NCBI GenBank assembly: GCA_029556545.1
Contig: JAKQEQ010000084.1
Span: forward strand, 64,305-106,438
Length of the DNA stretch: 42,134 bases
Reading direction: 5' to 3'
Source of the DNA: Candidatus Hydrogenedentota bacterium
Lineage (GTDB): Bacteria > Hydrogenedentota > Hydrogenedentia > Hydrogenedentales > JAGMZX01
A model generated the notes under the pieces. It was given only the letters and a program-made list of their open reading frames with translations, was not told the origin of the DNA and made no database searches. Positions 26,227-35,383 of this stretch are shown in pieces. Made by a program: the position numbers and the translations under genes. How positions within the stretch are numbered: the stretch's first letter is position 1; every line of letters starts with the position of its first letter.

Positions 26227-26694
26227 CTACTCCCCAAGTTCCGCGCGCTTGATCAACTCGTAGATGCCGCGCGGATCGCACTCGTCGACAAGGCGGCAAA
26301 CCAACGCCGACCCGCCCAGGAGCCTGCCGACGCAGGCCATGGCGCCCACGCGTCCCGCGAAGTTCCGTTTGGGCGTGATCATCAGGAGCACCAACCGGGC
26401 CGGAGCGCCGTCGAGCGACTCGAAGGGGATGCCCGTGGGCGCGGTGCCGAGGGCGCACAATATGTCCTCGACAAGATCAGTTCCGGCGTGCGGGATGGCC
26501 ACACCATGCTCCATGCCGCTGCCCATGGCGCTCTCACGGGTCAACACGGCTTCGAGCACCTCGTCCCGACGCGCATAAGGGATTTCGTGGGCTTGGACAA
26601 GCACGTCGACGAGTTCGCCGATGGCCTCCTCGCGCGTCTCGGCCTCGAGGCCCACCTTAATCAGATCGGGGCGCAGTAATTCACACAGCAGCAT
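26227..26694 (-). CDS. PTS EIIA (nitrogen/fructose type, PtsN-like) protein
   Basis: 155 residues starting MLLCELLRPDLIKVGLEAETREEAIGELVDVL; this ATG gives the normal PtsN length. The phospho-acceptor His is H69 in GMEHGVAIPHAGTD, matching G-[IV]-A-[IVL]-P-H of EIIA(Ntr)/EIIA(Fru). The tail KRAELGE is standard. In the PTS-Ntr phosphorelay such proteins take phosphate from NPr and regulate potassium transport, kinases and transporters by binding; sugar transport is not implied without EIIB/C. The ATG lies inside atpD (14-base overlap), so it is the last cistron of the V-ATPase operon and is probably translated with it. No ptsO, ptsP or HPr is in the window. This is an unusual partner for a rotary ATPase. 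Confidence 0.9.
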   Translation of the reverse strand: MLLCELLRPDLIKVGLEAETREEAIGELVDVLVQAHEIPYARRDEVLEAVLTRESAMGSGMEHGVAIPHAGTDLVEDILCALGTAPTGIPFESLDGAPARLVLLMITPKRNFAGRVGAMACVGRLLGGSALVCRLVDECDPRGIYELIKRAELGE

Positions 26695-27364
26695 GTCCCG
26701 AATCCTTGGTCTCGCTCGACCGTTTCGCACGGTTCTGTCGGGCTTTCTTGCCCTTGATCCGCTTGAGGCGGAAAACGTCTTCCCGCTCGCGTTCGTCGAG
26801 GACGCGCGCAATGGCCCGCATTTCCCCGCGCAGCTTGGGGATCAGATACTCCTCAAGCGCGTTGATGCGGCGGCTGACTTTCTTCACTTCCTCGCCGATG
26901 ATCTGCAGATTACGCTCCCGCGGCGCGCATTTCAAGAGTTGTTCGAGCATTTCCTCGTAGGTCTCGGCCACCTCGTGGACATGCGCGGAACTGTCCAGCA
27001 TGCCGATGCCACGTTCATCCGCCCGGCGCACCACGCCGTCCAGGTCGATGTCGCCCAGGCTCAGCCCCCAGACCCTCTCCGTCCGCACGGAGACGTTCAA
27101 GTCGCGTCGCCCGGCGACGGCCGCGGAACGCAACTCGGGCGTGCCGCGCACCGCGCGCGCCAACGCCAGCGCGACGCAGGCGGCGCGGCCGCGCTCGTGG
27201 AGTTCGTCGCGGAACGCGCGGAGCTCGCGTGCGCGCGTGAGCAGTTCCTGAAGAAGCGCATCGCGCTTGCCCTTTAACAAGGTCACGCCGTCTGACGCGA
27301 GCTTGATCTGCCCCTTTCGTTGGAGCAGGTTCATCCGCGTCGGCGCGAGGGCGTCCACACTCAT
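26681..27364 (-). CDS. atpD: V-type ATP synthase subunit D
   Basis: 227 residues, the central rotor shaft of the A/V-type ATPase, linking the A3B3 head to subunit C and the c-ring. LAPTRMNLLQRKGQIKLASDGVTLLKGKRDALLQEL is the long N-terminal antiparallel coiled coil start (A-P-T-[KR]); the matching C-terminal helix is EMLEQLLKCAPRERNLQIIGEEVKKVSRRINALEEYLIPKL. The last ~35 residues are Lys/Arg-rich (RIKGKKARQNRAKRSSETK), extending past the family core and probably surface-exposed. AAGGAAA precedes the ATG; the start lies 17 bases after the atpB stop. The 3' end overlaps the EIIA-like gene. Confidence 0.95.
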   Translation of the reverse strand: MSVDALAPTRMNLLQRKGQIKLASDGVTLLKGKRDALLQELLTRARELRAFRDELHERGRAACVALALARAVRGTPELRSAAVAGRRDLNVSVRTERVWGLSLGDIDLDGVVRRADERGIGMLDSSAHVHEVAETYEEMLEQLLKCAPRERNLQIIGEEVKKVSRRINALEEYLIPKLRGEMRAIARVLDEREREDVFRLKRIKGKKARQNRAKRSSETKDSGHAAV

Positions 27365-27381: not shown

Positions 27382-28830
27382 TCACATGGCGGACGGCACT
27401 TCATCCATGAACGGAGAGTGCAGGCCGTCTTCCATGATCGGCGTGTAATACGAGTCGATGGTCTTCTTATTGATGCGCGTGAGTTCTTCCTTGGGCAGCA
27501 TGCCGAGCAGTTTCCACCCGATCTCGAAGGTCTGGCTGAGCGCCCGGCGGCTGAAGCCCTGGCCGGTCATCTCCCGCTCGAAGGCGTTCGCGAACGCCAG
27601 ATACTTGCGATCGAGTTCGGTCAGGGCATCCTCGCCCACAATCGCCATGAGCTTGCGCACGTTCGTGCCCTGGGCATACGCCGCGTACAACTGGTTCGCC
27701 CATTCGCGATGGAACTCTTCCGTCTTGTCCTTGCCGATACCGTTGTTCATAAGCCGCGACAGGCACGGCAGGATGTCCACCGGCGGGAATATCCCTTGCC
27801 GATGGAGCCCGCGCCCGAGCACAATCTGCCCCTCGGTGATGTAGCCGGTGAGGTCCGGGATCGGATGCGTGATGTCGTCGTCCGGCATCGTCAGCATCGG
27901 GATTTGCGTCACCGAGCCCTGCTTCCCGCGGATGCGGCCCGCCCGCTCGTAGATCGTGGAGAGGTCGGTGTACATATAGCCGGGATAACCGCGCCGGCCC
28001 GGAATCTCCTCGCGGGCCGACGACACCTGCCGCAGCGCTTCGCAGTAGTTCGTCATGTCCGTCAGGATGACGAGCACCTGGTAGTCCTTCTCGAAGGCGA
28101 GGTATTCCGCCACTGTAAGGGCGCATCGCGGCGTGAACAGCCGCTCGATTGCCGGGTCGTCCGCCTGGTTGAGAAAGGCGACGACGCGCCCGCCCTGGCC
28201 GCCCTCGTCAAAGGCGCGCAGGAAATACTGGGCCTCGCGGGCGGTGATGCCCATCGCGCCGAAGACAATCACGAACTGTTCCTCGGCCCGCGTCGTGCCG
28301 GCGTTCTGCACAATGAGGTTCGCCAGTTCATTGCCGGGCAGGCCCGAACCCAGGAAAATCGGGAGTTTCTGGCCGCGCACCAGCGTATTGAATCCGTCGA
28401 TGGCGGAGACGCCGGTCTCGATGAAGTCGTTCGGTTGCGCCCGGGACACGGGATTGATCGCGCTGCCCGAGATTTCCAGTTCCTTCTCCGGCACGACGGG
28501 CGGCAGACCGTCGATCGGTTGTCCCACGCCGTTGAAGCGCCTCCCGATAACGTCCGGCGAGCACGCCACGCGCGCCGCGTCGTCCCGCAGGGAGACGGAC
28601 GTCCCCTTCACGTCGATGCCGACCGTCCCTTGGAGGACCTGCACGACGGCATGGGTCGTGGTGGCCTCGAGCACCTGTCCCTGGCGGGACTCGCCGTTTT
28701 CGAGATGGATATTGAGAATCGCGCCGGTCGGGAACCGCCGCGCGTTCTGAAGAAAGACAAGGGGGCCGGAAACGTAGGTCAGGTCCCAGTATTCCTTGTG
28801 CAACATCTGTTCGCCGCTGGATTCCGTCAT
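27382..28830 (-). CDS. atpB: V-type ATP synthase subunit B
   Basis: 482 residues from ATG at 28830 with AGAAGG about 11 bases upstream; an in-frame MLHKEYWDL a few residues later is also possible. It is the non-catalytic, nucleotide-binding stator subunit of the A3B3 hexamer. RFNGVGQPIDGLPPV, ETGVSAIDGFNTLVRGQKLPIFLGSGLPGNELA (no Walker A Lys, as expected), FGAMGITAREAQYFLRAFDEGG, FLNQADDPAIERLFTPRCALTVAEYLAFE, TDMTNYCEALRQVSSAREEIPGRRGYPGYMYTDL and PMLTMPDDDITHPIPDLTGYITEGQIVL are all characteristic. Start lies 32 bases after the atpA stop. Nothing is odd. Confidence 0.96.
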   Translation of the reverse strand: MTESSGEQMLHKEYWDLTYVSGPLVFLQNARRFPTGAILNIHLENGESRQGQVLEATTTHAVVQVLQGTVGIDVKGTSVSLRDDAARVACSPDVIGRRFNGVGQPIDGLPPVVPEKELEISGSAINPVSRAQPNDFIETGVSAIDGFNTLVRGQKLPIFLGSGLPGNELANLIVQNAGTTRAEEQFVIVFGAMGITAREAQYFLRAFDEGGQGGRVVAFLNQADDPAIERLFTPRCALTVAEYLAFEKDYQVLVILTDMTNYCEALRQVSSAREEIPGRRGYPGYMYTDLSTIYERAGRIRGKQGSVTQIPMLTMPDDDITHPIPDLTGYITEGQIVLGRGLHRQGIFPPVDILPCLSRLMNNGIGKDKTEEFHREWANQLYAAYAQGTNVRKLMAIVGEDALTELDRKYLAFANAFEREMTGQGFSRRALSQTFEIGWKLLGMLPKEELTRINKKTIDSYYTPIMEDGLHSPFMDEVPSAM

Positions 28831-28862: not shown

Positions 28863-30650
28863 CTAATGGGCTTGCAACCCCGCAAGCGCCTGCTTCATGC
28901 GCTCTTGCACATCGGCTTTCTTCGCCGGGAATTCCTCGTTGCTCATGTCGCGCAGGCGCGAAATCTCTTCGCGAATGGGCAGGTCCAGCACGCGGCTCAA
29001 CGGGACTTCGCGCTTGAGCGTCTCGCGACACGCCTCGTGGAAGTTCAAGAGGATATCGAGCAGTCCCCCCATCTTTTCGAGGCCGCAGAACATGTCACTT
29101 TTCGAGAAGGCGTTTTGTTGCAGGAACATCTCGCGCAACATGCGCGCGATCTCGAGGACCAGTCGCTCTGCGTCCTGCAGCGCGTCCGGGCCCACCAGTT
29201 GGACCACTTCCTGCATTTCGGCGTCCCGCTGGAGCAAGGTCATGGCCTCCTGCCGCAGCGTGATCCAGTTCGCCGGACCGTGTTGTTCGAACCACGGCTT
29301 GAGCGCGTCGAAATAGAGCGAGTAACTGCGGTTCCAATTCACCGAGGGGTAGTGACGCCGGTACGCCAGCGCCGCATCGAGCGCCCACACCGCCCCCGAC
29401 ACCCGCTGCGAGGTTTGCGTCACCGGCTCCGAGTAATCGCCGCCGGGCGGCGACACCGCCCCCACAGCGGTCAGCGATCCGATGCGCGGCGTCTCGCTGT
29501 CGGCAAGCACGCCGCAACAGACCACACGCCCGGTCCGCTCGTAGAATTCCGCGATGCGCGCGGACAGATACGTCGGGTAGCCCTCTTCGCCGGGCATCTC
29601 TTCGAGGCGCGACGAAATCTCCCGCAGCGCCTCGGCCCAGCGGGAGGTCGAGTCCGCCATGAGCGCGCAGTCGTAGCCTTGGTCGCGGTAATACTCGGCG
29701 AGTGTCATGCCGGTATAGACCGAGGCGTCGCGGGCGGCCACGGGCATGTTCGACGTGTTTACGACAAGGATGGTACGGCTCATGAGCGATTCGCCGGTAT
29801 TGGGGTCCTCAAGGTGCGGGAACTCGCTGAGCACTTCCGTCATCTCGTTGCCCCGCTCGCCGCAGCCCACGTACACGATGACCTGCGCGTTGCAGAACTT
29901 CGAGATGCTCTGCTCGACTACGGTCTTGCCCGTGCCAAAGCCCCCCGGAACAATCGCGGACCCGCCCATCGCTATCGGGAACAGGCAATCAAGCACCCGC
30001 TGCCCCGTCAGGAAGGGCGTGTCCAGCAACAGCTTCTTCGCGAAGGGCCGCCCCTGTTTCACCGGGGATCGATGCATCATGCGCAGTTCCGTACCGTCCT
30101 CCAGGCGCGCGATGACGTCCGTCACCGTGTATTCCCCCTCCGGTGCGACCCACGCGATTACGCCCGTCATCCGCGGCGGCACGAGAATGCGATGCTCGAT
30201 TACCCGCGTCTCCTGCGTAACCCCAAGGATATCGCCGCCGAGGACCGCCTGGCCCGGGGTTACGCGGGGCGCGAAGGGCCATTTCTTTTCACGATCGAGT
30301 GCGACGGCGGTGATGCCGCGCCCGATGAAATCGCCCGAGGACTGCCGCAGGTCTTCGAGGGGACGCTGAATGCCGTCAAAGGTCGCGCCGAGCAATCCCG
30401 GCCCGAGTTCGACGCACAGGGGCGCGCCCGTGGCGACCACGGGCTCGCCGAGAAACATGCCTTCCGTGCTCTCGAAGACTTGGGCGTACACCTTGTCGCC
30501 GTCAATGCGGATAACCTCGCCCATGAGCCCGAGCTTGCCCACGCGAACAATCTCGCCCATGCCGACGCCGAGCATCTCGTCGGCCTCGATCATGGGCCCC
30601 GAGATGCGCACGAGCTTCCCCGTAGTCTGTTCCTGCACGGCTACCGCCAT
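28863..30650 (-). CDS. atpA: V-type ATP synthase subunit A
   Basis: 595 residues, the catalytic subunit that makes or splits ATP. The N-terminal beta barrel (TTGKLVRISGPMIEADEML) and the A-type non-homologous insert (residues ~110-185) are present. The Walker A is GGFGTGKT (K242, IVPGGFGTGKTVVEQ); archaeal and V-type A subunits more often read GPFGSGKT, so the first variable residue is Gly. EMPGEEGYPTYLSARIAEFYERTGRV and DFDGLLDE-like parts follow, with GAVSPPGGDYSEPVTQ in the Walker-B downstream segment. The C-terminal helical domain ends QRMKQALAGLQAH-like. A 79-base gap with a cloverleaf repeat separates it from atpF, unlike the other tight junctions. Ion and direction are not decided by this subunit. 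Confidence 0.96.
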   Translation of the reverse strand: MAVAVQEQTTGKLVRISGPMIEADEMLGVGMGEIVRVGKLGLMGEVIRIDGDKVYAQVFESTEGMFLGEPVVATGAPLCVELGPGLLGATFDGIQRPLEDLRQSSGDFIGRGITAVALDREKKWPFAPRVTPGQAVLGGDILGVTQETRVIEHRILVPPRMTGVIAWVAPEGEYTVTDVIARLEDGTELRMMHRSPVKQGRPFAKKLLLDTPFLTGQRVLDCLFPIAMGGSAIVPGGFGTGKTVVEQSISKFCNAQVIVYVGCGERGNEMTEVLSEFPHLEDPNTGESLMSRTILVVNTSNMPVAARDASVYTGMTLAEYYRDQGYDCALMADSTSRWAEALREISSRLEEMPGEEGYPTYLSARIAEFYERTGRVVCCGVLADSETPRIGSLTAVGAVSPPGGDYSEPVTQTSQRVSGAVWALDAALAYRRHYPSVNWNRSYSLYFDALKPWFEQHGPANWITLRQEAMTLLQRDAEMQEVVQLVGPDALQDAERLVLEIARMLREMFLQQNAFSKSDMFCGLEKMGGLLDILLNFHEACRETLKREVPLSRVLDLPIREEISRLRDMSNEEFPAKKADVQERMKQALAGLQAH

Positions 30651-30729: not shown

Positions 30730-31053
30730 CTAATCCAATCGAATCTCGAAGCCCACCGCCGGCTTCAAGATGGCGTTTATATACGCGTCCGTGCCGGCTT
30801 CCTCCTCCTCGAAGGCGGGACAATAAATGACCAACGGACGGCCCTTGTGTCGCGCCAACCGGTTGCGACGCCACTCCGAGAGCTTGTCCCGAAGGCTCTC
30901 GTCGATGATGAGCACTTCCGTGTCGCCCGCAAGCAATTCCTCGATCAGGGCGTCCGCTTCCTTGACGTCGCGCGTCTCGTGAACGCGAACGCCCGTCAGC
31001 CCGAGTCCCAGGCTCATCGTCGGCTGCCCTATCGCCACAATATTCGTCGCCAT
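30730..31053 (-). CDS. atpF: V-type ATP synthase subunit F
   Basis: 107 residues, the small Rossmann-like subunit that sits on subunit D in the central stalk and tunes ATP hydrolysis. MATNIVAIGQPTMSLGLGLTGVRVHE shows the strand and G-L-x-G-[IV] pattern; EVLIIDESLRDKLSE and PLVIYCPAFEEEEAGTDAYINAILKPAVGFEI match family ends (I-[KR]-x-A-[IV]-G). Length is normal (about 100). Start lies 26 bases after the atpC stop. Downstream is the 79-base repeat gap before atpA. Confidence 0.92.
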   Translation of the reverse strand: MATNIVAIGQPTMSLGLGLTGVRVHETRDVKEADALIEELLAGDTEVLIIDESLRDKLSEWRRNRLARHKGRPLVIYCPAFEEEEAGTDAYINAILKPAVGFEIRLD

Positions 31054-31079: not shown

Positions 31080-32141
31080 TCAAACAAACACCAGTTCCTC
31101 GCGAACGCGCCCCGACGGCAAGTGGCCCGCAAGACCCCGCGCGATCAGCCGCAGGTTGATCCCCTCGTTGTACTTCCGCCACGAATAGTCCATCGCGACG
31201 GCCAACCCGAGCGGGTCACGCACCGCAAGCCGGCGGAGTTCGCGCAGAAGCGCCTGCTCGAAAAGCCGCTCGACCGGCGAAAACCGGTGCGTCTGCATAA
31301 ACTGATACAGTTCCTCCAGAAAATCCCGGTAGCGGGTGCCGCCCAACATTTCCGCCGCTTGCGCCGCGTCGTCAGCCTCGATGAGGCGCCGCAGCAGCGC
31401 GGGCGCCAGCGTGCCCTCGGGCAACAGCCGGTCCATTGATGCCGGGACCGGGGCCGGTTCCCGAAGACGCTCGAAGATCAACCGCAGGTTGATCCGGTCT
31501 ATCTCGAGTTGGAAGAAGAAGTGGAGCAGCCGGCTGTCCTGATCCTCCGCGTCCTTCAATCGCGCCGCGCCGCGCACGAAGTAGTGCCTGTCCAGCGCCT
31601 CGTCGAGCAGCGCCAGGTCGCGCGTCGCGCTGTAAGCGGGCAGCGCCGCGCTCAATCCGCCGCACAATTCCGAGTCCCAGACGATCAACTGGCCGCAGAG
31701 CGCTTCCACGGTCTCGCATTGCGCGAGCCGCCGCTGCACTCCCGGAGGCATGTGCGCACCGGGCGCCAGCGCGCCGAGGGCCTCATCCAGATCAAGTCCC
31801 TGGTGCCGGACCCGCAGAAGCGACTTGACCGAGTTCAAGTCCCACCGCCGAAGGAAGAGATCCAAGAACTCACGCGGGCGTCCCGCGGCGCGCACCGTGA
31901 GCAGACGCGCCGTTGCGACCAGGTTGCGCGTCACGGCTTCCTCGACGGCGTCGGCCCCCTGATTGTGCGAAAGGGCCTCGGCCATTTGCTCATGGTACGG
32001 GGAATCCAGCAGGGCGTCAATCATCTTGGCAAGGTCGTTCTGATGGAGAAACTCCTCAAGCCGCGCGCGAGTGAAGAGCAGGCTCTTCAAGCTGCGCACG
32101 CGCGCGTTCATATACGCGAATTGAGGATCAATCACCGGCAT
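31080..32141 (-). CDS. atpC: V-type ATP synthase subunit C
   Basis: 353 residues, subunit C/d, the funnel that docks the shaft on the c-ring. All-helical, three repeat-like bundles, no membrane span: FAYMNARVRSLKSLLFTRARLEEFL, FLDLFLRRWDLNSVKSLLRVRHQG (a hallmark W/Y-D-[LIV]-x-N-[LIV]-[KR]-x-[LIV]-[LI]-[KR]), FFQLEIDRINLRLIFERLR (second N-L-[KR]-x-[IL]), and YSWRKYNEGINLRLIARGLA (third, with C-terminal N-[LIV]-R-x-I). Length fits the family. The ATG lies 3 bases after the atpE stop, so translation is coupled. Confidence 0.93.
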   Translation of the reverse strand: MPVIDPQFAYMNARVRSLKSLLFTRARLEEFLHQNDLAKMIDALLDSPYHEQMAEALSHNQGADAVEEAVTRNLVATARLLTVRAAGRPREFLDLFLRRWDLNSVKSLLRVRHQGLDLDEALGALAPGAHMPPGVQRRLAQCETVEALCGQLIVWDSELCGGLSAALPAYSATRDLALLDEALDRHYFVRGAARLKDAEDQDSRLLHFFFQLEIDRINLRLIFERLREPAPVPASMDRLLPEGTLAPALLRRLIEADDAAQAAEMLGGTRYRDFLEELYQFMQTHRFSPVERLFEQALLRELRRLAVRDPLGLAVAMDYSWRKYNEGINLRLIARGLAGHLPSGRVREELVFV

Positions 32142-32144
32142 CAG

Positions 32145-32741
32145 TCACTTCTCCGGCTCAAACAGCCGCTCCATGCAGAGCCTTCGCGCCGCGTTCTCCC
32201 GCCGCGCAAGGCGTGCGCTCAGCGAATTGGTCGTCCGCCGCGTGCGCGCCCGGTCCTGTACAGCAACACCGTCGCGCAGCGTCGCCAGCGGTATCACCTC
32301 GACCGCCGCGCGGCCATGCGCCGCAAGCCAGTCGCGAACCGCGTCCACGTGCCGCGGCGGCGCCAGCACCACGGCGTCCTCCGGCGCGTCCCTGAACAAC
32401 TCCGCAAGCAACGCATGCAGCACCGGCGCGAACTCGGGACCATCCGCCATGCCCCGGAGATCGTCCATCACGGTCCGAAGAACTTCGTCCGCAATCACGT
32501 CCTTCGTGTTCAGGATGAGCTTCCGGGCTTCGGTCTCCGCATGCTCACGCGCGCGCGCATCGAGGTTCCCGATCTCCGCACGCACAGCGGCCAGCGCCGC
32601 CGCGAGATCCGCTGCGGCGTGCTTTCGGGCCGCTTCGCGAAGAGCCACCGCCTCACACCGCGCCTGCGCGAGAATCTCCTCGCGCTGCCGCGCAACCTGC
32701 GACGACATCAATTCCAACAGGGGAGCCGCTTCCACGGGCAT
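32145..32741 (-). CDS. atpE: V-type ATP synthase subunit E
   Basis: 198 residues, peripheral-stalk subunit pairing with subunit G/H. A long N-terminal helix (LLELMSSQVARQREEILAQARCEAVALREAARKHAAADLAAALAAVRAEI, ~8-60) is Ala/Arg/Glu-rich coiled coil, and the C-terminal half is a small alpha/beta domain (PEFAPVLHALLAELFRDAPEDAVVLAPPRHVDAV...DGVAVQDRARTRRTTNSLSARL with the R-T-x-x-N-[ST] end). The last ~20 residues are basic. Length matches E (about 190-210). Start lies 16 bases after the atpK stop. Assignment rests on operon position plus fold, as sequence identity in this family is low. Confidence 0.85.
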   Translation of the reverse strand: MPVEAAPLLELMSSQVARQREEILAQARCEAVALREAARKHAAADLAAALAAVRAEIGNLDARAREHAETEARKLILNTKDVIADEVLRTVMDDLRGMADGPEFAPVLHALLAELFRDAPEDAVVLAPPRHVDAVRDWLAAHGRAAVEVIPLATLRDGVAVQDRARTRRTTNSLSARLARRENAARRLCMERLFEPEK

Positions 32742-32757
32742 AACTGATCGCTCCGTA

Positions 32758-33120
32758 CTACAGATTCAGGGCAATCACAATCCCCAATACGAACCCGAGC
32801 ACGACCATCGTCTCGGGCAGCGCGACCAAAATGAACACCCGGCCGAACAGTTCCGGCTTCTCGGCCATGGCGCCCGTGCCGCCCGCGCCGATGGCCGACT
32901 GGGCACGACCGGTGGCAAAGGCCCCGCCCGCAACGCACAGCGCGGCGGCGAGCGCGATCCCGAGCGCGCGGATGCCCGCGCCCACCGAGATGTTCCCGAC
33001 CGCCTGCGCGGCGTCCGGCGCTTCCTCCGCTGCGAAGACCGCGGGCGCGGCAAGCAGCATCGTCGCCACGAGCACGGCCGAGAGTAGACCGACGTTACTT
33101 ACAAACGATCCTTTTACCAT
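32758..33120 (-). CDS. atpK: V-type ATP synthase subunit K (c-ring proteolipid)
   Basis: 120 residues, the membrane rotor ring that carries H+ or Na+. An N-terminal hydrophobic segment with AAPAVFA-AE (residues ~11-31) looks like a cleavable signal peptide, and then one hairpin: helix 1 ~44-75 (VGAGIRALGIALAAALCVAGGAFATG) with G-A-x-G-x-G-type turns GAGGTGAMAEKPELFG, and helix 2 ~94-119 with the ion carboxylate E103 (VALPETMVVLG). So it is a single-hairpin proteolipid. Q74 in helix 1 and T104 beside E103 are candidates for Na+ coordination, but ion specificity cannot be fixed by eye. Overlaps the atpI stop by 7 bases; AAAGGAA precedes its ATG. Confidence 0.92.
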   Translation of the reverse strand: MVKGSFVSNVGLLSAVLVATMLLAAPAVFAAEEAPDAAQAVGNISVGAGIRALGIALAAALCVAGGAFATGRAQSAIGAGGTGAMAEKPELFGRVFILVALPETMVVLGFVLGIVIALNL

Positions 33121-35048
33121 GACAGTTCCTTTCTAAACGGTTCGTAACTCCGTCCTTCCGGTTCATAAAACTTGGGCAGGAACTCGACGTAATTCAGACG
33201 CAACGAGTGGATCGTCGGGCTGAATACGCCGATCCCGATATTGAGCAGATGAATAATCCCCGCGAGAGGAATGCCGATGACGATCCCCGACCACCCCGGC
33301 ATCCCCAGCACGGCGTTTGCCAGGTCCGCAAGGACTACGGACGCCAGGCCCAGCGCCATCAGACGGCCATAGGACAGAATGTTCGAGGTCAGGCCGATAA
33401 TCTCCATAACGCCCATCGCAGCCATGGCGCCCATGGCGTGGACCAGCAACACGATCGCGGCCGCAAACAACAGCCCCGCCGTGAGAAGTGTCGGTCCCAT
33501 GCCGCCCGGGAAGTAACCGAGAATGCCCGCCACCGCGACAAGGAGCGCGGCCAGACCCAGCAACATGCCGAGCTTCTCCTCCGCGTGCTCCCTGTGCCCG
33601 TGCCGATACCCCTCAACAGCGCCCAAAACAAGGCTGATCGGAACGTGCACAATGCCGTAGCCCACGGCAACGCCGAGCAGCACCAGCGGCTGATGCATCC
33701 GGTGAAATAGAGGATGAAGCCCGAGATACAACTCCGGCAAATTACCGAAAAACTCGCCATATACAATGCCCCAAACGATCGAGGACGCGCCCATCCACTG
33801 GGCGATGCTGAAGGCGTCACGCATCAGTTCGTTGCGACCCCACCGCCGCTTCGCCCACGCCGCTACGCCGACGATGAACAATCCGTAACCCGCGTCGCCG
33901 AGGATGAACCCGTAAAACAACACGAACGATATGGCGACTATCCACGTCGGGTCGAGCGTCCCGTATTTCGGCGGGTCGAACATGCGCAGAATAAGCTGGA
34001 ACGGCTTAAATATGCCGTAATTGCGCAGCAGCGTCGGGATGCGCCGTCGGTCCAACTCCGTCTGCGGCAGTCTGCCCACCACCGCCTGCGCGCCGAAGCG
34101 CTGCTGGACCGCCCGGCGAAACGCCTCATAGGTGTCCGTCGGAATCCAGCCGTGCACCACCGTGACGAGTCGGCTCTCAGCCAGGGAACGTACGACGGAC
34201 AACTGCGCCAATCGGTCCGTAATAGCCCGGTCAAGCGCATGGAGAGCCGGGCCTTGCGCCAACGAGAACTCCGCGCGCTCGACCCCCAGTCGCTCAAGTT
34301 CCGCGTCGAAGCCGCGAAGCTTCGCGTCGATGCGCCGAAGCGCCTCCTCGATGGTAATCCCCGTCAGCGTCTTGTCGGGCACATCGAGCGGTATGATGCC
34401 CCGTTCGCGCAGAATCTCGCCCACAGCGTCCCCGCGACCCGCCGGATGCGTGACCACGGCGACGATGTTCGTGCGGTCCATCATCCGCCGCGCGAGGTCG
34501 CACTCGGGACCCACGTCCCGGATGATCTGCTTTTCGAGGTCGTCGAGGTCTTCCGCCGCCGCAGCGGGGATAATCATGGCCTTTGCCGTCACCCCAAGCA
34601 GCGCGCGGCGCTCGGCCATCAACGGCGCCACGTTCTCGAGTACGCGGCGATAGTTGCGCAGGACGTCCTTATTATCCTGAATGTTCAACCGCCGCCGCGC
34701 CAGAGACCGCAACGTGCGGTGGCACATGCGCACCGTGTTCCCCCACGCTTCAATATCGGGATTATCTCCCGCGAAGTCCCGCGCCGCGGCGTCAACGGCG
34801 TCAAGCAACGGCGTCACGGCCAACAACGGCATAGCCTCGCGTGCCAGACGCCGCAGTTCCTCGAGCGTGTCGAATTCCTCCTTCCGCTCGCGCGGCAGGT
34901 GCACCCGGTGCAGGTAGCCCGGGTAGTTCTCCAGCGCCAAGGGCACGTCTTCCATGTGCATGACGCCCTGCTCCTGGAGGAACGCAATCATGGCATCGAG
35001 CTCCGACCGGAGAAAAACCACCTCGACACGTTCCATGGCGGCAATCAT
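33114..35048 (-). CDS. atpI: V-type ATP synthase subunit I (a-subunit)
   Basis: 644 residues, membrane stator that carries the ion path. The soluble N-terminal half (~1-345) is coiled-coil and alpha/beta (MERVEVVFLRSELDAMIAFLQEQGVMHMEDV at start). Seven to eight membrane helices follow after residue ~365 (PTWIVAISFVLFYGFILGDAGYGLF...). The essential stator arginine is R562 in NILSYGRLMALGLASVVLA, the conserved S-Y-x-R-L-x-A-L-G-L-A motif. The C-terminus LRLNYVEFLPKFYEPEGRSYEPF is highly conserved. Start chosen at ATG 35048, which overlaps the upstream stop as ATGA; ATG 35036 (MERVEVV) is the alternative. No oddities. Confidence 0.95.
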   Translation of the reverse strand: MIAAMERVEVVFLRSELDAMIAFLQEQGVMHMEDVPLALENYPGYLHRVHLPRERKEEFDTLEELRRLAREAMPLLAVTPLLDAVDAAARDFAGDNPDIEAWGNTVRMCHRTLRSLARRRLNIQDNKDVLRNYRRVLENVAPLMAERRALLGVTAKAMIIPAAAAEDLDDLEKQIIRDVGPECDLARRMMDRTNIVAVVTHPAGRGDAVGEILRERGIIPLDVPDKTLTGITIEEALRRIDAKLRGFDAELERLGVERAEFSLAQGPALHALDRAITDRLAQLSVVRSLAESRLVTVVHGWIPTDTYEAFRRAVQQRFGAQAVVGRLPQTELDRRRIPTLLRNYGIFKPFQLILRMFDPPKYGTLDPTWIVAISFVLFYGFILGDAGYGLFIVGVAAWAKRRWGRNELMRDAFSIAQWMGASSIVWGIVYGEFFGNLPELYLGLHPLFHRMHQPLVLLGVAVGYGIVHVPISLVLGAVEGYRHGHREHAEEKLGMLLGLAALLVAVAGILGYFPGGMGPTLLTAGLLFAAAIVLLVHAMGAMAAMGVMEIIGLTSNILSYGRLMALGLASVVLADLANAVLGMPGWSGIVIGIPLAGIIHLLNIGIGVFSPTIHSLRLNYVEFLPKFYEPEGRSYEPFRKELSW

Positions 35049-35383
35049 GTTCCACCGCCCTCCTGGCCGGCGGGCAGGATGAGCCGCAGGACCTCCTCCT
35101 TCACCCGGTCCACCTTCCCGGCGGTCTCCCGGCGAATCCGGTCCACTTCCCGTTCCGCCGCATCGAGCGTCTCACGGGCCAGGCGCTCGCGCGTCGCGGC
35201 CGCCTCGGCCCGCAGGCACGCGACTTCGGCGTTCAATTCCGCCTCCGCGCTCTGCTCCAGGGCAGCGACTTCCGCGCGGGCATCGTCGAGCAGACGTCGC
35301 GCCTCCGCTTCAGCGGCCGCGACTTGCTGCATGAGCGCCTGTTCGTGCTCGGCGACGATTTCCAATGGGGTACGTTCGTTCAC
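35045..35383 (-). CDS. V-type ATP synthase subunit G/H (peripheral stalk)
   Basis: 112 residues, first gene of the operon, from a GTG start (MNERTPLEIVAEHEQALMQQV). It is one continuous Ala/Glu/Arg-rich helix (~8-100), the expected shape of the AhaH/NtpG stalk subunit that pairs with subunit E. The C-terminal GQEGGGT is flexible. Its stop overlaps the atpI ATG. Only weak ribosome complementarity (GAGGCAGG) is visible. Position and shape give the assignment, since coiled coils are uninformative in sequence. Confidence 0.8.
   Translation of the reverse strand: MNERTPLEIVAEHEQALMQQVAAAEAEARRLLDDARAEVAALEQSAEAELNAEVACLRAEAAATRERLARETLDAAEREVDRIRRETAGKVDRVKEEVLRLILPAGQEGGGT

Follow-up and report, generated by a model that had tools for sequence, protein, structure and literature searches.

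In Escherichia coli, unphosphorylated PtsN, the terminal protein of the PTS-Ntr relay, binds and inhibits the K+/H+ antiporter YcgO, as reported from copurification, and phosphorylation of PtsN weakens this binding (PMC11808508). Further targets of PtsN are TrkA and KdpD, many PtsN targets are known elsewhere, and in some alpha-proteobacteria the kdp operon contains an additional ptsN, as described in a 2026 review (PMC13104625). The main text of the same review contains the words 'ATPase' and 'ATP synthase' 0 times each. No description of an EIIA protein tied to a V-type ATPase was found in open-licence papers, consistent with the initial annotation, which knew of no standard account of such a link. 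Here, a gene for a PtsN-type protein is described that closes a V/A-type ATPase operon in a bacterium of the phylum Hydrogenedentota. It lies in a window of 42,134 nucleotides, the whole stretch of DNA that was analysed, from a metagenome-assembled genome (MAG) of 6.1 Mb in 195 contigs.

The Thermus-order V/A-ATPase operon reads G-I-L-E-C-F-A-B-D. The Hydrogenedentota operon is alike in gene order and subunits, and differs by an extra tenth gene, EIIA, at its end. It runs head to tail on the minus strand from 35383 to 26227 as G-I-K-E-C-F-A-B-D-EIIA, with small gaps or overlaps between the ten genes. The operon is complete, as V/A-type subunits A, B, C, D, E, F, G, I and K are all present, with E falling slightly under the Pfam cut-off. 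The features from first gene to last are as follows:

35045..35383, minus strand: subunit G, first gene of the operon (V-ATPase_G_2, E 2.8e-09)
33114..35048, minus strand: atpI, membrane subunit a (V_ATPase_I, E 7.1e-21)
32758..33120, minus strand: atpK, c-ring subunit (ATP-synt_C, E 3.8e-13), carrying the Na+-type motif (helix 1 Q, helix 2 P-E-T)
32145..32741, minus strand: atpE, subunit E (vATP-synt_E, E 4.5e-05, slightly under the Pfam cut-off; NCBIfam PRK03963, E 5.2e-09)
31080..32141, minus strand: atpC, subunit C/d (vATP-synt_AC39, E 1.5e-56)
30730..31053, minus strand: atpF, subunit F (ATP-synt_F, E 9.4e-08)
28863..30650, minus strand: atpA, catalytic subunit A of the V/A-ATPase (NCBIfam PRK04192, E 5.1e-246)
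27382..28830, minus strand: atpB, V/A-ATPase subunit B (NCBIfam PRK04196, E 1.2e-209), start codon picked by eye
26681..27364, minus strand: atpD, V/A-ATPase subunit D (ATP-synt_D, E 1.1e-45)
26227..26694, minus strand: EIIA(Ntr)-like PTS protein of 155 aa with phospho-acceptor H69, last gene of the operon (PTS_EIIA_2, E 2.2e-21)

Past the operon, 213 bases beyond EIIA, the minus strand of the window encodes a Lys/Ala-rich protein of 169 aa (P0010, 25504-26013) that is without a Pfam match and resembles a phasin or histone, judged by eye. P0010 shows 81% identity in a genome of the same genus (G001) and was not found in the other loci compared.

EIIA begins with an ATG at 26694, within atpD, whose stop codon occupies 26681-26683, so that the two genes overlap by 14 bases, as the initial annotation had stated. 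An AAGGA motif located 8 bases 5' of this ATG, inside atpD, plausibly provides the ribosome site for EIIA. Between 25900 and 27500, no terminator-like site was found and the sole promoter-like match falls past the EIIA end, which makes an independent EIIA transcript unlikely. The distance from the atpD stop to the EIIA start was compared at 20 loci. At 14 of these it falls between -14 and +4 bases; 19 do not exceed 51, and the remaining locus has 671. Judged from these sequence features, atpD and EIIA are likely co-transcribed and translationally coupled, in agreement with the shared transcript and joint translation proposed at the outset.

EIIA is a PtsN (EIIA-Ntr)-type protein. Its PTS_EIIA_2 score in Pfam is 76.8 bits against a cut-off of 27, whereas its five NCBIfam matches, PtsN among them, all fall under their cut-offs. 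Because the curated cut-off of the PtsN equivalog TIGR01419 is missed (33.8 vs 138.7 bits), the protein is named PtsN-type and not PtsN proper. An AlphaFold model built from a 21-sequence alignment reached a pLDDT of 94.7, and its best fold matches are the solved PtsN structures 3urr, 2a0j, 1a6j and 4gqx, the first of which (E 1.3e-11, TM 0.85) confirms the EIIA-Ntr/Mtl fold. Ordinary PtsN is likewise the best match of the sequence profile. The fold search with the EIIA model (26227-26694) also returned 1hyn (E 1.2e-05), the cytoplasmic part of human band 3; this ion exchanger domain has a fold similar to that of EIIA.

The phospho-acceptor H69, part of GVAIPH (A-x-P-H motif), is intact in the alignment, as first read from the window, and this position is His in all 113 of the 113 aligned EIIA domains. 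With both H69 and the fold intact, a pseudogene or degraded EIIA was ruled out. The second active-site His is replaced by Arg here (R115); among the ATPase-linked EIIAs, 14 of 30 retain His at this position and 16 have it replaced, and among the others 66 of 83 retain it. In PtsN, the second-His residue points away from the active site, according to the 2026 review (PMC13104625), so R115 would fit a terminal acceptor without onward phosphate transfer.

The genome holds further parts of a phosphorelay. The ptsP/NPr genes that the initial annotation had proposed to look for have a counterpart elsewhere in the genome, a ptsP/ptsO-like EI-HPr pair with intact active histidines. Altogether two EI and two HPr proteins are present, all with intact active histidines (HPr motifs GLHARPA and GVHARPA, EI motifs SHTAILAR and SHSAMLAR, read from the translations), and on contig C167 one HPr adjoins one EI. 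A family search with PF02378, which was positive in 7 of 14 control genomes, gave 0 EIIC matches in this 96% complete genome, which makes a regulatory relay probable. The PTS of this genome looks like a regulatory, sugar-independent system, and with no EIIC found EIIA is unlikely to be a sugar-PTS component. Six EIIA domains are encoded, of which one is joined to a Na+/H+ exchanger and another comes with a CBS domain; among the five besides the operon EIIA, one is apparently standalone (L002, a 159-aa frame). Phosphate would pass from PEP to EI, HPr and EIIA independently of sugar, with the host HPr presumably phosphorylating EIIA.

To what extent EIIA accompanies the ATPase was assessed in 68 Hydrogenedentota genomes. 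AtpD of this ATPase type (at least 221 bits; other V-ATPase types at most 83) is encoded in 30 of them. An EIIA ortholog (at least 93 bits; best paralog 81.8) is present in 30/30 genomes with this ATPase vs 5/38 without, and is absent from 33 of the 68; within a set of 40 genomes, comprising the own genome and relatives, orthologs score at least 93.7 bits and paralogs at most 72.7. In 29 of the 30 ATPase-bearing genomes, EIIA and atpD are neighbours on one contig and in one orientation, a count that includes one with a GNAT gene between the two (G023). In the exception, G011, atpD stands at a contig end and EIIA on a different contig. Adjacency in relatives, set as a test in the initial annotation, is therefore strongly positive, and chance adjacency is ruled out by these 29 genomes; the conserved gene order is common descent, not 29 independent events. 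The EIIA and AtpD distances are correlated (r 0.62, reached in 0 of 2000 permutations). In the next 2.5 kb downstream of EIIA, no gene is common to more than four of the 17 informative ATPase-linked loci, an 18th with 197 bases only being left out. EIIA is the last conserved gene of the operon, and past it conservation stops. Longest-frame ORF maps are unreliable in this GC-rich DNA and were used as a guide only.

In 17 of 17 rows from 16 distinct contigs, helix 1 of the c-subunit of the EIIA-linked ATPase contains Gln and helix 2 contains P-E-T (Q...PET). Gln in helix 1 together with Glu-Ser/Thr in helix 2 is what we take to be the signature of a Na+-binding ring, and by this motif the EIIA-linked V/A-ATPase would be Na+-type. 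A second V-type ATPase is encoded in the same genome (L131, G000:C170:33138-35172), with AtpB 52% and AtpD 27% identical, and no EIIA was found beside it. In another V-ATPase type of Hydrogenedentota, EIIA follows shortly after atpD in four of the seven operons examined (L128, L129, L139, L140). The c-subunit of that second type is without the Na+ motif (L128, L129), and the EIIAs of these two loci form a clade of their own in the EIIA tree. A universal stress protein lies between atpD and EIIA in L129, confirmed as Usp by Pfam; in L128 it was read from similar letters, Pfam confirmation being limited to L129.

In the EIIA tree of 105 rows, from which L003, L004, L130, L032, L034 and one domain of L098 were left out, the Hydrogenedentota EIIAs form one clade with support of 99/95. 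The clade comprises 26 ATPase-linked rows out of 32, and the six unlinked ones are scattered through it, which reads as several losses of linkage. Outside the phylum, class-1-like ATPase operons ending in EIIA were identified in a Lentisphaerae MAG (L059) and in an unclassified bacterium (L047), and transfer of the operon including EIIA would explain both. Among 240 Lentisphaerae/Verrucomicrobia genomes, 125 had an EIIA match and the best 30 loci were compared: class-1 AtpD was found in 1/240 genomes and linkage of EIIA to a V-ATPase at 1/30 best loci, the query L059 itself in both cases, so that no general linkage was found in this group. In the phylum of L047, this AtpD occurs in 2 of 19 genomes and EIIA in one of those two, the second having no EIIA within 1.5 kb of its ATPase. 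Planctomycetota EIIA neighbours were compared as ORF lengths only. The Lentisphaerae V-ATPase operon also contains a gene for a 23S rRNA intervening-sequence protein between atpB and atpD (L059:1513-1875).

EIIA domains also occur near other ion transporters. Among the 80 best named EIIA loci, this V/A-ATPase lies directly upstream in 19, 17 are single-frame Na+/H+ exchanger-EIIA proteins and 2 more adjoin an exchanger; neighbour labels here and for the Lentisphaerae/Verrucomicrobia loci are BLAST matches to seeds from the same loci. Pfam confirmation was confined to L107, L072, L053 and L005 for the exchanger, and to L121 and L122 for the CNT transporter. The exchanger-EIIA genes of KSB1 (L107) and USDV (L072) come after another V-ATPase operon, and a terminator-like stem with a T run, identified by eye, separates the two, so that the antiporter-EIIA is probably on a separate transcript. 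In the spirochaete L096, an exchanger-EIIA gene follows the F1 alpha and beta genes. Standalone EIIA was observed directly beside a Na+/H+ exchanger at 8 of the 30 best Lentisphaerae/Verrucomicrobia loci (L148, L150, L152, L153, L157, L162, L163, L171).

The best explanation of the joint production of EIIA and the V/A-ATPase, put forward tentatively, is that a PtsN-type terminal phospho-acceptor is co-produced with a Na+-type V/A-ATPase since it adjusts this enzyme, or the Na+ circuit that the enzyme drives, to the PEP/energy state. In its favour stand the phylum-wide adjacency, the single well-supported EIIA clade, the end of conservation behind EIIA, the correlated EIIA and AtpD distances, the intact H69 and relay histidines, the lack of an EIIC match, the Na+ motif, the recurrence of EIIA beside other V-ATPases and Na+/H+ exchangers, and the YcgO precedent. 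Besides EIIA in ATPase-less genomes, the separate contig in G011, the EIIA-less ATPase genome in the phylum of L047, the probable separate transcript in KSB1 and USDV, the replaced second His and the common descent of the gene order count against it. By analogy with PtsN and YcgO, EIIA would report the PEP supply to the ATPase or to the Na+ circuit it serves. EIIA probably acts on the ATPase or its ion circuit; that it binds the ATPase directly, and in which direction the effect would run, we infer. The phosphorelay control of the ATPase suggested in the initial annotation has conserved adjacency, the EI-HPr pair and likely coupling in its favour, and the retention of EIIA in five genomes without this ATPase against it; the control itself would follow by inference. 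A broader proposal is doubtful: that the PTS phosphorelay directly controls the Na+-type rotary V/A-ATPase phylum-wide through a co-translated EIIA, as one case of EIIA modules repeatedly recruited to Na+/H+ machines (antiporters, Na+ symporters and two V-ATPase kinds), with PEP status setting the membrane ion circuit.

Close behind the best explanation, and nearly as likely, EIIA may be the general PtsN of the organism, placed in the ATPase operon for co-expression with energy-metabolism genes and having its targets elsewhere, such as K+ transport, sensor kinases and the stringent response. The five genomes just mentioned (G061, G062, G063, G064 and G066) bear most directly on this: AtpD and AtpB were both not found and EIIA is kept, so that EIIA has at least one job independent of the ATPase. 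In these assemblies, which are 78-90% complete, the ATPase was either lost or missed, and they are the principal argument against a regulator dedicated to the ATPase. A general role would also agree with ordinary PtsN as the best sequence and fold match, with 41 of the 80 best named loci having none of the neighbour types tested, with many homologs in other phyla without an ATPase neighbour, and with the many-targeted PtsN described elsewhere (PMC13104625). However, a housekeeping gene is not expected to be tied to one operon throughout a phylum while the downstream genes vary, or to be missing from 33 of 68 genomes, and the five other EIIA domains of the genome, including the apparently standalone one, likewise speak against a general PtsN.

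It is improbable that EIIA is functionally tied to a downstream CNT-type Na+ nucleoside transporter and phosphomethylpyrimidine kinase, its position after atpD being incidental. The order EIIA, CNT-type transporter, phosphomethylpyrimidine kinase is found in the ATPase-less G061 and G062, and CNT comes after EIIA at 6 of the 80 best named loci, directly so at the 5 that are among the 19 ATPase-linked ones, yet a CNT behind EIIA was found neither in the window nor in the sampled ATPase-bearing loci of families f1, f8, f10 and f11. A CNT-type Na+-nucleoside transporter directly 3' of EIIA was observed at L121, L122, L050, L057, L075, L084 and L085; in the first two a phosphomethylpyrimidine (ThiD-type) kinase gene comes next in turn, and the transporter may carry a thiamine precursor. 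Less probable still is a linkage by inherited order without functional meaning, or by chance, since, although common descent alone can preserve gene order and the 29 cases stem from few events, mean pairwise identity over 27 compared pairs is down to 48% for EIIA and 62% for AtpD with differing downstream genes, a second EIIA clade follows a second V-ATPase type, and 14 of 20 gaps fall between -14 and +4 bases.

Rotary ATPases are among the main cellular energy converters, and to our knowledge few control inputs have been described for bacterial V/A-type ATPases. If the preferred explanation holds and the pump is a target of EIIA, ion pumping would respond directly to glycolytic PEP status through histidine phosphorylation. 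Ion control by PTS-Ntr, so far concerned with K+ transporters, an antiporter and a K+ sensor kinase, would then reach a rotary machine, and PTS relays in genomes without sugar permeases would gain a testable role.

Compared with known systems, the Hydrogenedentota EIIA shares its fold and active-site His motif with Proteobacterial PtsN, and resembles it as a terminal phospho-acceptor without sugar transport, PtsN itself being a regulator of TrkA, KdpD and YcgO (PMC13104625, PMC11808508). Unlike PtsN, it scores under the NCBI equivalog level and has R115 in place of the second His, and it is encoded in the V/A-ATPase operon, whereas Proteobacterial PtsN is encoded in the rpoN operon. The ptsN2 of alpha-proteobacterial kdpABCDE is likewise a PtsN copy within the operon of an ion-pumping ATPase, as described in PMC13104625. 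In Kdp, however, the ATPase is of the P-type and transports K+, and PtsN targets a sensor kinase, whereas the Hydrogenedentota operon encodes a rotary ATPase and contains no kinase gene. In the Na+/H+ exchanger-EIIA fusions (L107, L072 and L005, by Pfam), an EIIA of the same family is covalently joined to a cation/proton transporter; in contrast, the Hydrogenedentota EIIA is a separate protein and its neighbour is a rotary ATPase. PtsN-type regulation itself is already known; what is new, as far as open-licence papers show, is the phylum-wide genomic partner of the PtsN-type regulator.
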